A stretch of 39,834 nucleotides of DNA from Myxococcaceae bacterium (GTDB lineage Bacteria > Myxococcota > Myxococcia > Myxococcales > Myxococcaceae). Of the stretch, positions 2,905-23,105 are shown piece by piece; position 1 is the stretch's first letter, and every line of letters starts with the position of its first letter. The notes beneath the pieces were generated by a model. That model saw nothing but the letters and a program-made list of their open reading frames with translations. It did not search any database and was not told where the DNA came from. The DNA is taken from positions 1-39,834 of the forward strand of contig JADGQZ010000240.1 of NCBI GenBank assembly GCA_017881345.1, in the 5' to 3' direction. Position numbers and translations under genes: made by a program.

Positions 2905-4317
2905 TCAGACCGCCTCGGGGAACTCCCGGGGGCGCGTCCCGAAGCGGGTGCGGATGGTGGCGCCCAGGGCGATGAAGGAGGCGGCCGTGAGCACCAGCGG
3001 CCCGAGCACCGGGATGAGCTGGATGATCAGGAGCACCACGATGCCCAGCGCCAGGACCGCCGCCTGCGTCTTGCGGCTGGCGCGCAGCACCGGGAGCCGG
3101 GTCCCGAGCTCCGAGGCGAGCGCCGAGAAGCCCATGGCGATCCCGACCGCGGTCACGATGAGCAGCACCAGCGTGAAGGGGATGCCGATGACGATGATGG
3201 TCAGCAGGATGGCCAGCCCGGCGATGGCCAGCGCACCGAGGAGCCCGGTGAGGCCGCAGCGGAGCGGGTCGCGGCGGATCTCCGACTCGAGCTGCTTCAT
3301 CGGCCTGGGGGCGAACATGATGAAGACGAAGCCGAGCGCGAAGTAGACCGCGAACTGCACCAGCAGCCAGAAGATGGACGAGCCGCGATGCTTCTCGACC
3401 GGCCGGGCCTTCTTCTCGGCGAAGCCAAGGCCACCCGACTTGCCGCCGAACGACAGGGTCTGCCCGTGCACCTTGGCCCCGGTCTCGCGCTCCACGCTGC
3501 CGCCGAAGGCGACCGCGTCGCCGCCGACCACCGCATGCGGGCCGAGCTGGACGTTGCCACCGAAGGCCACGGCATCGTTCCGCACGTGCCCCTTGATGTT
3601 CAGGCTGCCGCCGTAGGCCACCGCGTCGTCGACCTCCTGGTCCTCCTCGACGGTGACGTTGCCGGTGCCGACCGTCTGCCGGTCCGAGCGGTCCGCGCCC
3701 TTGGCGCGGCGGTGGAACTTGAGGGCGTCCTTCAGCTCCTTGAGGTCCTTGAGATCCTTGAAGTCCTTCAGCCGCCCGAGCTTCTCCTCGAGGCTCTGGG
3801 GAGGCATCGCGTCGGCGTCCTCCGCGTCGCTGTCCTCGTCCGGCTCGTCCGCGGAGTCCTCGTCGCTGTCCGAGGGCGGGGCGCTGTGACCCATGTGGGG
3901 CATGGGTGGCATCGGCGGGACGGGAGGGACGGGTGGGACCGGAGCCATCGGCGCGACGGGGGGAAGCGGCGGCATGGGGCCGACCAGCTTGGGCGGCGGC
4001 GAGCCCTCGGCGTGCGGGCGCAGGCTGTAGATGTTGCCCCGCTTCTCGAGCGAGAGGCCGTAGGCGCGGGCCAGCGTCTCCAGCGCCTCGTCGGCGGGGA
4101 CGTTCTGGAAGAAGACCTCGGCGTCCTCGTCGAGATCGCCCCGGACCACCACGCTGAGCTTGCCCTCGCTGGCGATGCGCTCGGCGACCTCCCGGAGCGA
4201 GCCATGGGTCTTCAGGGTGATGCGGGCCGCCGGCTCCTTCGCCTGCTCGGCCCTGGCGGGTGCGGCTGACAGGAGGAGCGGGAGGACCGCCGCGATGATG
4301 GCGACTGCGCGCTTCAC
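2905..4317 (-). CDS. Membrane protein with STN domain and bactofilin-like repeats, third gene of ECF unit
   Basis: This 470-residue protein has a signal peptide (1-23, ending APARA) and an STN (secretin/TonB short N-terminal) type domain at about 30-100. A proline/methionine stretch follows at 108-145, then an acidic stretch at 148-170 and a Lys/Leu/Asp heptad-like helix (LKDFKDLKDLKELKD) near 185. At about 225-290 are beta-solenoid repeats of the form DAVAFGGNVQLG, as in bactofilin-like polymer domains. Three or four hydrophobic segments lie at about 315-460. It overlaps the anti-sigma gene by four bases, so the three genes are probably co-translated. STN domains elsewhere pass signals from outer-membrane receptors to anti-sigma factors; here the domain is on an inner-membrane-type protein. 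A role in envelope sensing or structure is inference. Confidence 0.6.
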   Translation of the reverse strand: MKRAVAIIAAVLPLLLSAAPARAEQAKEPAARITLKTHGSLREVAERIASEGKLSVVVRGDLDEDAEVFFQNVPADEALETLARAYGLSLEKRGNIYSLRPHAEGSPPPKLVGPMPPLPPVAPMAPVPPVPPVPPMPPMPHMGHSAPPSDSDEDSADEPDEDSDAEDADAMPPQSLEEKLGRLKDFKDLKDLKELKDALKFHRRAKGADRSDRQTVGTGNVTVEEDQEVDDAVAYGGSLNIKGHVRNDAVAFGGNVQLGPHAVVGGDAVAFGGSVERETGAKVHGQTLSFGGKSGGLGFAEKKARPVEKHRGSSIFWLLVQFAVYFALGFVFIMFAPRPMKQLESEIRRDPLRCGLTGLLGALAIAGLAILLTIIVIGIPFTLVLLIVTAVGIAMGFSALASELGTRLPVLRASRKTQAAVLALGIVVLLIIQLIPVLGPLVLTAASFIALGATIRTRFGTRPREFPEAV

Positions 4318-4817
4318 GGTCGGACCTGGGCCTCCACGACCCGGTGTGCAGCGAGACGACGGACGCCCAGCGTGGACATCACGACGATGCCAGCCATGGC
4401 GACCGCCAGCGGGAGGGCGGCGGTGCTCCAGACGGCGGCGAGCGCCTCGGAAGCGCCGAAGAAGAAGTTCCTCCAGACGACGATGGCCGACGCCGCGTGG
4501 GTCCCGAGGAGCCCGAGGCTCCCGTGGGTGGCGACGAAGGCCAGCGTGGCGCCCATCAGGGTCACCGCGAGGATGGACAGGCCGGTGCGGAGCTCGAGCC
4601 GTACCGGGGCGGGCTCGAGCGCGACGCGGGCCATGACGCTGCGGACGAAGTCCACCGGAGGGAGCGGGTCCACCAGGCGGGTGAGGTCCTTTTCCAGCTG
4701 GCGGTGCTCCTCGGCGAGGAAGGCGCAGTCGGGGCAGCTGCGGAGGTGGGCGAGGGCGTCCGCGTCGTGCTCCGCCACGCCGACCATCAGGGTCTCTAGC
4801 TCGGGGCAGGCGTTCAC
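4314..4817 (-). CDS. Zinc-type anti-sigma factor, membrane-anchored
   Basis: This 167-residue protein has the zinc anti-sigma signature H24-x3-C28-x2-C31 (HLRSCPDC) in a short N-terminal cytoplasmic domain. Hydrophobic segments follow at about 83-103 and 128-150. Such proteins bind and hold back an ECF sigma factor until released by a signal. The gene overlaps the sigma gene by four bases upstream and the STN gene by four bases downstream, the usual arrangement for sigma/anti-sigma pairs. The start ATG at 4817 is fixed by the overlap. Confidence 0.8.
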   Translation of the reverse strand: MNACPELETLMVGVAEHDADALAHLRSCPDCAFLAEEHRQLEKDLTRLVDPLPPVDFVRSVMARVALEPAPVRLELRTGLSILAVTLMGATLAFVATHGSLGLLGTHAASAIVVWRNFFFGASEALAAVWSTAALPLAVAMAGIVVMSTLGVRRLAAHRVVEAQVRP

Positions 4818-5434
4818 TGGACGTCCTCCGTCTTCATCTGCTTGCGCAGCTTCTCACGCGCGCGGAACAGGCGGGCCATGATGGTGCCCGGTGCCACGCC
4901 CATCACCTGGGCGATCTCCTTCGTGGTGCGCTTCTGCACGTAGTACAGGGCGAGCACCTCGCGGTCGTCCGTGCCGAGCGTGGCGAGGGCGGTCTCGAGG
5001 CTCCGGTGCTCCTCGGCGGCGATGACGGTCTCCTCCTGGCTCCTCTCGCCGGAGGGGAGCGACTCGTGCATCTCGTCGACGTCCTGGGTGTGGACCCGCG
5101 AGCGGCGCCGGAGGAGGTCGAGGCAGAGGTTCCGGGCGATGGCGAGCACCCAGAGGTCGAAGGGCTTGGACTCGTCGTAGCGGCCCAGGTGCTGGTAGGC
5201 GCGGAGGAAGGTCTCCTGCGCAACCTCGGCGGCCTCGGCCTCCGTGCGGAGCAGCCGCAGACAGAGGCCGTAGACGGGGCGCTGGACGCTCCGGACGAGG
5301 GCCTCGAACGCGGACCGGTCACCGCGGCGCGCGGCGCGCACCTCGGCGCGGTACGGCACGGTCTCGGTCGGCTCGGCCAGGATCGACCCCAGTGCCGCCG
5401 GGGAGGAAAGCCACGAGGAGAGCAGGGTGGTCAC
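4814..5434 (-). CDS. RNA polymerase ECF sigma factor
   Basis: The protein shows sigma region 2 (RRGDRSAFEALV through AIARNLCLDLLRRR, with the core-binding stretch ETFLRAY) and region 4 (DREVLALYYVQKRTTKEIAQVMGVAPGTIMARL, a helix-turn-helix). This is the size and form of an extracytoplasmic-function sigma factor that directs RNA polymerase to a small regulon. I chose the GTG at 5434 (206 residues); a TTG at 5485 gives 17 more residues of poor, Gly-rich sequence and has no ribosome site. Neither start has a strong site, so the start is uncertain. It lies about 100 bases after truD in the same direction and heads the sigma, anti-sigma, STN-protein unit. Confidence 0.88.
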   Translation of the reverse strand: MTTLLSSWLSSPAALGSILAEPTETVPYRAEVRAARRGDRSAFEALVRSVQRPVYGLCLRLLRTEAEAAEVAQETFLRAYQHLGRYDESKPFDLWVLAIARNLCLDLLRRRSRVHTQDVDEMHESLPSGERSQEETVIAAEEHRSLETALATLGTDDREVLALYYVQKRTTKEIAQVMGVAPGTIMARLFRAREKLRKQMKTEDVQ

Positions 5435-5536
5435 GTCAACCCATACGCCCGTACTCCCTGGGCGATTGCCCCCGCCCCCGTGCAACTGACGGCATGGCCC
5501 GGAGCGGGGGCGGCCCCGTCCCGGAAGCGGCGCACC

Positions 5537-7036
5537 TTAGCGCAGCTTCTGACGTGCCCGTGCGGCGGCCTTGGCCTCTTTTCGGGCCTTTGCGCGGGCA
5601 AGAAACCCGGTCGGTGCGTCCGTGGCCGCGACGGGAAGAGGGGCCGAGCGTTCCCTCGGAGCACCCAACGGACCTTCGTCTCGCCGAGCTTTCCGGGAGC
5701 TCGGAGGCCGCCTCCGGTCGCCCGCCTCCGCGTGGCCGGTGGCCGGGCCCGAGCCCCGGCGTTCGTCCGGCCCGGAGCGGGCGTGCGGTGCGTCCTCCCG
5801 CTCGCCATCGGGGGCGGGGTGGCCGCCGCCCGGCGTGGCGCGGATCTCGTCCGGGGTGTCCTCCCGGGCAGTCCGGTGGAACAGGCGCTTCACGACCAGG
5901 GTCGCGTAGCTGCCAGGCGGCAGCGTGAAGGCCACGTTCAGCTTGCCGAAGCCGCGGTTCAGCTCGTCCGACTGGGTCCGGCCGAGCACCAGCTTGCTCG
6001 GCTGCACGAGCACGCCCCGTTCCTCGTGCTTGAAGTACAGCATCCGCTCGGCCCCGGCGATCCGGAGCTGCTCGAGCCGGAGCTTCTCCTTGCCGAGCAC
6101 CCAGTCCACGGCCTCACGGACCCGCGGATCCTCGATCGTCGTGTCGGGAGCGAGGAGCGGGAAGGTCAACCCTCGGAGCCAGCGCAGGGTCTCGGGGTCC
6201 GCGTCCTGGTGGAAGAGCAGCGTCCCGGCCTGGTAGCGGAGCGGGAAGAGGGAGGTGCGCGGGAGCGCGATCTGGAGCAGCCGCCGCACCCCCTCGTTCC
6301 AGAGCCAGCTCTGGTAGGTGAAGAGCAGGAGCGCGCGATAGGCGGAGTCGATCTGGAGGAAGGCCCGGAGATAGTCCTCGGGCTTCTCCTTCAGCGAGCG
6401 CACCACCCGGTCGTACTTGTGCGCGGCCTCGAAGGGCACCCGGCGCGTCCAGTCCCCCCAGTTGGCCTGCCAGAACTGCTTGACCTTGGCATCGTCGGAC
6501 CGGTCGAGGGTCGACGGCTTCGCCAGGTAGTTCTTCAGGGCGGCCTCGAAGTCGCCCCGGATGAGGTCCTTGGCGATGTAGCCCTGGCCGTGCTTCAGCG
6601 AGCCGAAGCGCTGGCTGTCGAAGTAGTTCACCACTCCGAGTCGGTTCACCTCGGCGGCAGCGCGCGGGAGCTCCTGGAGGTCTTCGTCCGTCAGGGCGCG
6701 GACGGTGACGCTGAACCGGTTGGAGGTGGTGTTCGCCGCCGACAGAGCCCGACCTGTGCGACCCAGTGGCTTCAGGCGGAGGTCCGGCTCCTGGAAGTCG
6801 ACCTCGGCGCCGTCCACGGCAATGAGCTGCTCGGTGCGGCCCTGCTTGTCCTTCAGGCCGCAGAAGCTGATGGCGCCCGGGCGGAGGCCGTAGCGGGTCC
6901 GGATGCGCTCCACCGCCTCGAAGGTGGACAGCTTTTGCTTGTCCATCAGGTAGACCCGGTACCGCCCGTCGGGGACCGGGTCGAAGCGGTAGGACTCCTT
7001 GACGCTGAAGTCCTCGGGTCGTTGCTTGATGCGCAC
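5537..7036 (-). CDS. truD: tRNA pseudouridine synthase TruD with long basic C-terminal tail
   Basis: TruD makes pseudouridine at position 13 of tRNA. The catalytic aspartate is D63 in FCGLKDKQGRTEQ, and NYFDSQRFG and the TRRVPFEAAHKYD region match the family. I set the start at GTG 7036: an AAGG site lies nine bases upstream, and this places residue 1 at the start of homology (RIKQRPEDF). A longer reading to 7381 would run through the divergent cyclase gene. The core ends near residue 389. The last 110 residues are predicted disordered, rich in Arg, Pro, Gly and Glu, and end in a Lys/Arg/Ala helix-like run (ARAKARKEAKAAARARQ). The tail is not part of the usual family and may bind RNA; that is inference. 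Confidence 0.88.
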   Translation of the reverse strand: MRIKQRPEDFSVKESYRFDPVPDGRYRVYLMDKQKLSTFEAVERIRTRYGLRPGAISFCGLKDKQGRTEQLIAVDGAEVDFQEPDLRLKPLGRTGRALSAANTTSNRFSVTVRALTDEDLQELPRAAAEVNRLGVVNYFDSQRFGSLKHGQGYIAKDLIRGDFEAALKNYLAKPSTLDRSDDAKVKQFWQANWGDWTRRVPFEAAHKYDRVVRSLKEKPEDYLRAFLQIDSAYRALLLFTYQSWLWNEGVRRLLQIALPRTSLFPLRYQAGTLLFHQDADPETLRWLRGLTFPLLAPDTTIEDPRVREAVDWVLGKEKLRLEQLRIAGAERMLYFKHEERGVLVQPSKLVLGRTQSDELNRGFGKLNVAFTLPPGSYATLVVKRLFHRTAREDTPDEIRATPGGGHPAPDGEREDAPHARSGPDERRGSGPATGHAEAGDRRRPPSSRKARRDEGPLGAPRERSAPLPVAATDAPTGFLARAKARKEAKAAARARQKLR

Positions 7037-7070
7037 GGGGGCAAGCCTTGTAACATCGGCAGACGGTCCG

Positions 7071-8801
7071 ATGCTCAGCGCCTGCCCACGCTGTCGAACC
7101 CCCCTGGCCCAGCCCAATCCGCCGAGGTGCGCGGCGTGCGGGGAGTCGCTCTCGTCGAGCCAGGTCCCGTCGGTCCGGACCAGTCCCCGCGGGCCGTACC
7201 TGACCGGGCGGCTCCTGGACGGCAAGCTGAGCGAGTTCCCGCTGGGGCCGAGGACCACCCTGGGCCGCCACCCGGCCAACACGCTCCGGCTGGCCGACCG
7301 CGAGGTGTCCAAGGAGCACGCGTCCATCGAGAAGGTGGGCAACGGCTTCGTCATCAAGGACCTGGGCAGCTCGAACGGCACCTACGTGAACGGCCGCCGG
7401 GTCCGGGAGCTCCGTCTCAAGGACGCCGACGAGATCGCGCTCGGGAACAGCCGGCTCGTCTTCCACACCGGCGACGTGCTGACCAGCACCGGGAGCCCCG
7501 GGGTCACGGTGCTAGCCTCGGCCCAGGCCGCCCCCGCCTTCCTGGCCCAGCTCGACCAGCCGGCGGTCGACGAGACCGAGTTCCGTCCGGCCGAACAGCT
7601 CAAGGACCAGGCCGCGCTGCGCCAGGATTACGAGAAGCTCCGGATCGCCCACGAGTTCCACCGCCAGGTGGGCCTGGAGCGCGACCAGAAGAGCCTCCTC
7701 GACAAGATCCTCGCCGTCAGCTTCCAGCTGCTCGCCGCCGACCACGGCGTCATCTTCCTGGTGAACGATCAGGGCGAGCTCGTCGCCCAGGCCGTGCACC
7801 ACCGGACCGGGAGCGACGAGGAGGTCGTCCTCTCCGACACCGTGCTGAAGCGCGTCCTCGAGACGCGGCAGGCGGTGCTGACCGCGGACGCCATCCTCGA
7901 CAGCCGCTTCAGCGGGAGCGAGAGCATCGTTGCCCAGGGCATCCGCAGCGCCATGGCCGTGCCGCTGCTGGCCAAGGGCGAGCTGAAGGGCGTGCTCTTC
8001 CTCGACACCCGCGAGCGGACCAACGCCTTCAGCGAGAAGGATCTGAAGATCCTCTCCGGAATCTCCTCCCAGGCCGCCATCGCGCTCGAGAACGCCGACC
8101 TGGCGCGGAAGATCGAGACCGAGGCCGTGACCCGGGCGGAGCTCTCGCGGTTCCTGTCCCCGGCGGTGGCGGACATGGTGGTGAAGGGACAGGTCGAGCT
8201 GCTCCGCCAGGGCCGGCTGGCCGAGGTGAGCATCCTGTTCGCCGACATCCGGGGGTTCACCTCCATCGCCGAGGGAGAGAGTCCCCAGGAGACGGTGTCG
8301 ATGCTGAACGCCTTCTTCTCCGCGATGGCGGACGTGGTGTTCCGGCACGAGGGGAACCTGGACAAGTTCATCGGCGACTGCGTGATGGCGGTGTGGGGTC
8401 CGCCCTCGCCGCACGAGGACGATCCGGCCCGGGCGCTCCGGGCGGCGCTGGAGATGCAGGCCGCGGTCGAGACGCTGAACGAGGCCCGCGAGGCGAACGG
8501 GCAGACGCGCATCGAGATCGGCATCGGGGTGAACACCGGCCAGGCCGTCGTCGGCTACATGGGTTCGGCGGACCGGCACGAGTTCACGGCCATCGGCGAC
8601 TGCGTGAACACCGCCTCCCGCCTCTGCAACGTGGCCAAGGGGAACGAGGTGCTCGCCGCGGACAGCACGGTGTCGAAGGCCGGCGCCGGCTTCCACGTCG
8701 AGGCGCTCCCACTGGCGCACGTGAGGGGCAAGGAGCGGGCGGTGCAGACCTTCCGGGTGATGGGGCTCGACGAGCCAACGTCGACCGGGACGGACGGGTA
8801 G
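7071..8801 (+). CDS. Zinc ribbon-FHA-GAF class III adenylate/guanylate cyclase
   Basis: The 576-residue protein starts at ATG 7071. Domains in order are a small zinc ribbon (C5-x2-C8 and C20-x2-C23), an FHA phosphothreonine-binding domain (about 42-133, with GRHPANTLRL, SKEHASI and GSSNGT), a linker helix and a GAF domain (about 205-342). A class III cyclase domain follows (about 385-562). Cyclase residues are present: metal aspartates D392 (FADIRGFT) and D436 (IGDCVMAVWG), base-contacting K432, and transition-state N513 and R517 (CVNTASRL). The enzyme should be active and make cAMP (or cGMP), with input from a phosphorylated partner through FHA and from a ligand through GAF. It is divergent from truD with 34 bases between starts, so the promoters must overlap. 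Confidence 0.9.
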   Translation: MLSACPRCRTPLAQPNPPRCAACGESLSSSQVPSVRTSPRGPYLTGRLLDGKLSEFPLGPRTTLGRHPANTLRLADREVSKEHASIEKVGNGFVIKDLGSSNGTYVNGRRVRELRLKDADEIALGNSRLVFHTGDVLTSTGSPGVTVLASAQAAPAFLAQLDQPAVDETEFRPAEQLKDQAALRQDYEKLRIAHEFHRQVGLERDQKSLLDKILAVSFQLLAADHGVIFLVNDQGELVAQAVHHRTGSDEEVVLSDTVLKRVLETRQAVLTADAILDSRFSGSESIVAQGIRSAMAVPLLAKGELKGVLFLDTRERTNAFSEKDLKILSGISSQAAIALENADLARKIETEAVTRAELSRFLSPAVADMVVKGQVELLRQGRLAEVSILFADIRGFTSIAEGESPQETVSMLNAFFSAMADVVFRHEGNLDKFIGDCVMAVWGPPSPHEDDPARALRAALEMQAAVETLNEAREANGQTRIEIGIGVNTGQAVVGYMGSADRHEFTAIGDCVNTASRLCNVAKGNEVLAADSTVSKAGAGFHVEALPLAHVRGKERAVQTFRVMGLDEPTSTGTDG

Positions 8802-22700: not shown

Positions 22701-23105
22701 ATGACGGACAAGGACAACAAGGGAAGCATGACCGTGGCGGAGGCCGGCAGGAAGGGCGGCGAGACCGTCCGGAACGAGCGCGGCCGCGAGTTCTACGAGA
22801 CCATCGGCAGGAAGGGCGGGGCGACCGTGAAGGCGGAGCGCGGACGGGCCTTCTACGAGGAGATCGGGCGCAAGGGCGGTGAGACGGTGAAGGCCGAGCG
22901 CGGCGCCAAGTTTTACGAGGAAATCGGGAAGAAGGGTGGCGACCGGGTGAAGGCAACCCGCGGCCCCAACTTCTACGAGGAGATCGGCCGGAAGGGCGGT
23001 CAGAAGGTCAAGAAGCTCATCGAAGAGGGAAAGCGGGCGGCGCGTGATGCAGCAGCGGCGGCGCCGGCCGCCCCCACTCCCGGTCCCGAGCCCTCCAAGG
23101 GCTGA
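22701..23105 (+). CDS. KGG-repeat protein (stress-induced GsiB-like)
   Basis: This 134-residue protein is made of a 20-residue repeat, GRKGGxTVxxERGxxFYEEI, with four full copies (residues 16-35, 36-55, 56-75 and 76-95) and a partial fifth. It begins with a short acidic-basic start and ends in an Ala/Pro tail. The K-G-G pattern with F-Y-E is that of KGG-domain stress proteins such as Bacillus GsiB, small hydrophilic proteins made in general stress, often compared with plant LEA proteins. The start has the site GGAAGACA just before ATG. The first two copies differ most in DNA, so the array is not a very recent expansion. A role in stress protection is by analogy. Confidence 0.85.
   Translation: MTDKDNKGSMTVAEAGRKGGETVRNERGREFYETIGRKGGATVKAERGRAFYEEIGRKGGETVKAERGAKFYEEIGKKGGDRVKATRGPNFYEEIGRKGGQKVKKLIEEGKRAARDAAAAAPAAPTPGPEPSKG
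22746..23010 (+). repeat. 60-base coding repeat of the KGG gene
   Basis: About four and a half copies of a 60-base unit encode GRKGG...FYEEI. Copies two to four share the phrase TTCTACGAGGA or its close variant at the same phase. The repeat is real at the protein level and partly eroded in DNA. Confidence 0.75.

Follow-up and report, generated by a model that had tools for sequence, protein, structure and literature searches.

A SigW-like ECF sigma operon with a membrane-anchored STN and beta-solenoid protein, candidate core of an envelope-stress regulon in Myxococcota

A three-gene operon of a Myxococcaceae bacterium encodes an ECF sigma factor, a membrane anti-sigma factor and a third protein in which an STN domain and a beta-solenoid are predicted to be carried by a bundle of membrane spans. 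From sequence comparison, the trio appears to be an ECF envelope-stress system whose sigma factor, anti-sigma factor and promoter are close to those of SigW/RsiW and whose third component seems to have a new architecture. We consider it highly probable that a sigma-driven envelope-stress regulon including pspA exists in Myxococcaceae; that the trio is the core of a Myxococcota regulon of the SigW/RsiW-plus-Psp type, with the third protein as its co-regulator, is a reading that we favour with some reservation.

The operon lies on the minus strand of a stretch of 39,834 nucleotides (the window) from a draft genome of 4.8 Mb and has the following features:

5444..5469, minus strand: predicted autoregulatory ECF promoter GCAAT-N17-CGTA, with the -35 element at 5465-5469 and the -10 element at 5444-5447
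4814..5434, minus strand: ECF sigma factor, SigW-like, 206 aa, GTG start (Pfam, NCBIfam, relatives)
4314..4817, minus strand: membrane anti-sigma factor, 167 aa (position, 4-bp overlap, HxxxCxxC, hydropathy)
4725..4748, minus strand: zinc-anti-sigma type motif H24-x3-C28-x2-C31 (sequence)
2905..4317, minus strand: third protein, 470 aa, with signal peptide, STN domain, Pro/acidic linker, beta-solenoid and C-terminal membrane bundle
4249..4317, minus strand: predicted signal peptide of the third protein, residues 1-23, ending ARA (sequence and hydropathy)
4015..4224, minus strand: STN/secretin-N0 domain, residues 32-101 (profile, AlphaFold2 (AF2) model, Foldseek)
3445..3678, minus strand: beta-solenoid, residues 214-291 (AF2; repeats of the type GGxVxIxGxVxGDAVAF)
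2941..3381, minus strand: C-terminal membrane bundle, residues 313-459, ~five spans (AF2 helices mostly with pLDDT >90, hydropathy)

The original prediction had described three genes with four-base overlaps, and the coordinates of the open reading frames confirmed 4 bp at both joints. Its claim that they form one unit was supported by the conserved gene order, the overlaps and the shared promoter. The third gene was detected in 51 of 60 relatives and, far from being absent there, the trio order was kept in every readable locus of the order Myxococcales, the sigma and anti-sigma genes preceding the third gene in 39/39 loci with a readable upstream region. A 4-bp overlap joins sigma and anti-sigma gene in 38 of these 39 loci and anti-sigma and third gene in 22, the remainder lying within -1 to 18 nt (our script favoured a 4-bp overlap where one existed, a choice that cannot create such a start). 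Outside the order, the trio occurs in other Myxococcota classes (genomes G107, G091 and G064, with G075 consistent); this distribution was surveyed within Myxococcota, and the phylum search, made with a single sequence, understates distant members. The closest named record of the third protein, and the single relative returned by the contig scan, is a 78% identical homologue in a Myxococcaceae metagenome assembly. Third-protein relatives of the solenoid-plus-membrane type also occur without ECF neighbours (G017, G032, G037, G009). The genes adjoining the trio encode TruD and an aldehyde dehydrogenase, and no TonB-dependent transducer gene is adjacent. The TruD gene (window 5537-7381), whose product has a long basic C-terminal tail, is directly upstream of the sigma gene and syntenic in many Myxococcaceae loci, and an FHA-GAF-guanylate/adenylate cyclase protein (6999-8801), divergent from TruD, is syntenic in several relatives. 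The window also encodes a KGG/LEA_5 repeat protein, a stress-induced repeat type, at 22701-23105.

The sigma factor matched Sigma70_r2 (9.7e-19) and Sigma70_r4_2 (2.7e-15) well above the Pfam cut-off, as well as TIGR02937 (1.3e-34), and has regions 2 and 4 but neither 1.1 nor 3, as expected for the ECF family (group IV). Its best NCBIfam match was SigW (8.9e-36, under that model's cut-off), and its scores remained below the SigW equivalog cut-offs (123.5 bits vs 209 for NF007223 and 108.1 vs 243.1 for TIGR02948); judged by these profiles, it is SigW-like and not SigW proper. The reading frame is open to 5485, and we placed the start at the GTG at 5434 because relatives align at this position and because of the location of the promoter. 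We considered that it might be identical with Myxococcus RpoE1, an ECF sigma factor reported to be involved in motility.

The predicted promoter of the operon, GCAAT-N17-CGTA, lies 9 nt ahead of the start codon of the sigma gene, so that the message would be almost leaderless. A sequence of the form G[C/A]AAT-N16/17-CGTA precedes the sigma gene in 38/38 loci (two of them with CGTT), with a spacing of 16 in 31 loci and 17 in 7, and the distance from promoter to start is exactly 9 nt in 31/38. In control sequences, the motif appeared in 0.17% of shuffled regions and never in reversed ones, and the only strict match in the window compares with 0.04 expected. Myxococcaceae promoters carry GCAAT (24/25) and those of other families GAAAT (12/13). 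The single exception outside Myxococcaceae, G037, combines GCAAT with a recognition helix of the Myxococcaceae type (APGTIMARLFRAR vs PxGTVMTWLHRAR). This covariation of the -35 base with the recognition helix, the exception included, links the sigma factor with the promoter of its own operon. We found no internal promoter between the anti-sigma and third genes in any of the 39 loci in the order; in three distant lineages (G075, G091 and G064), a separate promoter copy lies directly upstream of the third gene, which makes this gene a predicted target of the sigma factor in its own right. The promoter of the trio is close to the consensus of Bacillus SigW, TGAAACN16,17CGTA (PMC2375139).

Taken alone, the anti-sigma factor of the window matched nothing significantly in Pfam. 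It consists of an N-terminal anti-sigma domain followed by two to three hydrophobic segments, as judged by hydropathy, and the presence of HxxxCxxC in the N-terminal domain together with a membrane anchor places it with the ZAS-type (Class I) anti-sigma factors. When compared with solved structures, the family profile matched RsiW best (7.9e-4), followed by DdvA, and zf-HC2 was matched in 5/38 relatives. HxxxCxxC is present in 27/39 loci. About a third of the relatives are devoid of it (e.g., the genes at L038:7347-7826, L040:7682-8164 and L046:7319-7798), and most of these retain an EEHRQLEKDL-like helix and a DPLPP stretch. Loss of the motif while these elements are mostly kept suggests that zinc binding may be dispensable. 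No periplasmic FecR or STN domain was found in the window protein or its relatives by Pfam and hydropathy, and in the 21 relatives where two spans are clear, the hydrophobic segments are only 30-42 residues apart. A folded periplasmic sensor such as that of FecR or RseA would not fit into so short a stretch, so that the anti-sigma factor would be sensor-less.

The original prediction had assigned an STN domain to the third protein, and this assignment, for which a structure prediction without an STN fold would have been damaging, held well. The Pfam STN match (PF07660) of the window protein alone was just under the gathering score (1.8e-5; 24.9 vs 28.4 bits), the family profile matched the PilQ N0 domain at 2e-12, and PilQ-type N0 matches were found in 33/39 family members. 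The AF2 model has a pLDDT of ~95 over residues 32-101, and its top Foldseek match was again the PilQ N0 domain (1.1e-4, rmsd 1.8 Å), with the PupR CCSSD (6ovk, rmsd 2.2 Å), the anti-sigma structure 4m0h and other STN structures lower down the list. Thus, both profile and structure identify the beta-alpha-beta STN/N0 fold. The "bactofilin-like repeats" of the same prediction stood only in part. A beta-solenoid is indeed predicted (pLDDT ~96; mean of the whole fragment, 91), but the window protein had no match to Pfam Bactofilin (PF04519), the solenoid fragments of only 12/34 relatives matched it, and weakly, and the fold search returned no confident bactofilin, BacA appearing only at E 0.6. The positive charges between the spans fit an N-terminus outside and a C-terminus inside, so that the STN domain and the solenoid should face the periplasm. 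Read by eye, the third proteins of G091 and G107 have no recognisable STN domain and keep the solenoid and membrane parts. By this reading, the solenoid and the membrane bundle would form the core of the protein, with the STN domain as a frequent addition that cannot be essential everywhere, which weakens the original view of it as the sensing domain. The third protein of locus L064 (G059; 6529-8247) apparently has two STN-like units before the solenoid, and the number of STN domains appears to vary between lineages.

To delineate the predicted regulon, we used pattern scans and excluded strict matches within genes (e.g., L073, L075, L081) as targets. The pattern GCAATN16-17CGTA gave 10 matches in the genome of the window vs 0 in the reversed control, and 85 in four relatives vs 24 reversed. 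Of 31 trio-bearing Myxococcaceae, 20 have the strict promoter before pspA (16 by scan, G001 and G023 by coordinates, plus G017 and G012), compared with a rate of 0.12% for this form in shuffled sequences, and six more have GCAAT with CGTG or CGTC there. In the six genomes where no third gene was detected, the promoter is never present before pspA (Fisher p about 0.005 for 20/31 vs 0/6, calculated by hand and ignoring relatedness). It is also absent before pspA in four trio-bearing genomes of another family (f7), so that the pspA link appears to be a trait of Myxococcaceae and not a universal one. Genes for small secreted solenoid proteins, paralogs of the solenoid of the third protein, have a strict promoter in 17/19 loci and CGTC variants in the other two, which include that of the window genome; in G057 and G059 the promoter takes the GAAAT form, matching the sigma factor of these genomes. 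The paralog in the window genome, a secreted beta-solenoid protein of 159 aa, follows GCAAT-N16-CGTC (L148, G000:C66:21400-23400, reading frame from 899), and in several relatives such a paralog is located ~8-34 kb from the sigma operon.

Further predicted targets, named by Pfam and several of them seen in one or two genomes only, encode Yip1, a MacB/FtsX permease, DUF2807, DUF4097 toastrack, PspC, DUF1232, Transgly_assoc and a CAAX protease. The same promoter is also repeatedly found upstream of genes for membrane proteins of 89-98 aa with a coiled-coil-like tail (L078 (G000:C216), L114, L138, L198, L175), which are PspB-like in layout only; two of them were scanned and had no Pfam match. Promoter comparison strongly implies that the sigma factor positively autoregulates its operon and controls pspA and the small solenoid genes in Myxococcaceae. 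Some of the targets could belong to a different ECF sigma factor that prefers the same promoter. The envelope signal that had been proposed for the trio thus received indirect support, because the predicted regulon includes pspA and genes of the PspC, toastrack and Yip1 types.

The trio had also been described as matching no standard system. As far as we searched, this is true of its exact domain order; its gene logic has precedents in rpoE-rseA-rseB and FecI-FecR-FecA, and the sigma/anti-sigma pair and the promoter resemble SigW/RsiW. By profile, the nearest sigma and anti-sigma factors are SigW and RsiW of Bacillus subtilis, with which the trio shares the -10 CGTA and the N16/17 spacing (PMC2375139). 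The Bacillus SigW regulon contains the pspA operon and yvlABCD (PMC3498285), and pspA, PspC and toastrack genes are likewise among the predicted targets of the trio. In contrast, the trio has GCAAT/GAAAT as its -35 element where the SigW consensus has TGAAAC, its operon includes a third gene as a constant member, and its envelope is Gram-negative. The anti-sigma factor of the trio has a membrane hairpin, whereas RsiW crosses the membrane once and has a larger outer part. In the autoregulated operons rpoE-rseA-rseB (E. coli sigma-E) and algU-mucA-mucB, a sigma factor is similarly combined with a membrane anti-sigma factor and a periplasmic third gene product, RseB being encoded by the third gene of the former. 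However, the third protein of the trio has no MucB/RseB domain detectable with Pfam or NCBIfam and is membrane-anchored with STN and solenoid domains, and a periplasmic domain like that of RseA is missing from the anti-sigma factor. Toastrack-containing Psp/Lia systems also share PspA, PspC and beta-helical partner proteins with the predicted regulon, but toastrack is predicted to be intracellular whereas the solenoid of the trio is predicted to be periplasmic; the text of the Psp/Lia survey mentions operonically linked sigma factors and makes no mention of Myxococcota, bactofilin, STN or anti-sigma factor (PMC11237479).

The operon and its promoter, the recurrence of this promoter at genes for envelope stress, and the anatomy of the domains come directly from the computation. 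We propose that, at rest, the membrane-bound anti-sigma factor would hold the sigma factor, which envelope or membrane stress would release. Free sigma factor would then bind G[C/A]AAT-N16/17-CGTA promoters, amplify its own operon and, in Myxococcaceae, switch on pspA, the genes for the small secreted solenoids and further genes of membrane stress. Co-produced with the anti-sigma factor, the third protein would be anchored in the inner membrane with its STN domain and solenoid held in the periplasm and might act as an RseB-like co-regulator, reading the state of the envelope and stabilising or releasing the sensor-less anti-sigma factor. Inferred parts of this model are the nature of the signal, a physical contact of the third protein with the anti-sigma factor, and the direction in which the third protein acts.

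A regulatory role of the third protein is suggested by the fixed place of its gene behind the anti-sigma gene, by the absence of a sensor domain in the anti-sigma factor and by the precedents of RseB and of STN domains, which contact, bind and protect anti-sigma factors in cell-surface signalling (PMC7186176, PMC11637429). This step is weakened by the separate promoters of the third gene in distant lineages and by the effector-like paralogs. Alternatively, the third protein could be an effector only, a periplasmic scaffold, induced by the sigma factor and anchored in the membrane, for reinforcing or monitoring the envelope; the sigma factor would then be released by direct sensing or proteolysis of the anti-sigma hairpin. 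The solenoid paralogs predicted as targets of this promoter on their own, the promoter copies of the third gene in G075, G091 and G064, the toastrack-type beta-helical proteins among the predicted targets and the solenoid-plus-membrane relatives away from ECF genes are all consistent with this role. It fits less well with a third gene that invariably comes right behind the anti-sigma gene across classes, with a 4-bp overlap in 22/39 loci, and with an anti-sigma factor whose lack of a sensor domain suggests a regulatory partner. We regard a pure effector as possible but rather doubtful and give a modest preference to the co-regulator. More specifically, the third protein might represent a new class of ECF co-regulator, with a periplasmic STN domain and beta-solenoid on a multi-span bundle, that controls a sensor-less anti-sigma factor via membrane-embedded contacts and runs a phylum-wide Psp-like regulon in Myxococcota, a proposal that we make tentatively.

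The STN fold and the presence of the PupR CCSSD and the anti-sigma structure 4m0h among its structural matches recall cell-surface signalling of the FecI-FecR-FecA type, in which the STN domain would receive its signal from an outer-membrane transducer. Indeed, FecI-FecR-FecA and PupI-PupR-PupB also combine an ECF sigma factor and a membrane anti-sigma factor with periplasmic STN and beta-solenoid-like domains, the latter joined to the STN domain in PupR (PMC7186176). However, in the trio these domains are on a separate protein and in another order, the anti-sigma factor has no periplasmic FecR or STN domain, the neighbours encode TruD and aldehyde dehydrogenase and not a TonB-dependent receptor, and the STN domain is nearest to PilQ N0 and not to FecA. 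With no periplasmic domain in the anti-sigma factor and no transducer nearby, we rejected this type of signalling as very unlikely. A sigma-controlled polymer or cytoskeletal scaffold of the bactofilin type is, if anything, even more improbable. The glycine-rich beta-solenoid repeats and the Pfam matches in 12/34 solenoid fragments speak for it, but a true bactofilin was not supported by Pfam, fold search (BacA at E 0.6) or topology, the signal peptide and membrane spans predicting periplasmic repeats fused to an STN domain. Known bactofilins are cytosolic.

In the open literature searched, we found neither a report of ECF-sigma control of pspA in myxobacteria nor a description of the architecture of the third protein (most subscription journals were outside this search). 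The finding supplies an operon that is conserved, a defined promoter and a set of targets in ranked order. It suggests a way in which an anti-sigma factor that has no sensor domain may be controlled and would extend the pairing of STN and solenoid domains with sigma regulation beyond iron uptake.
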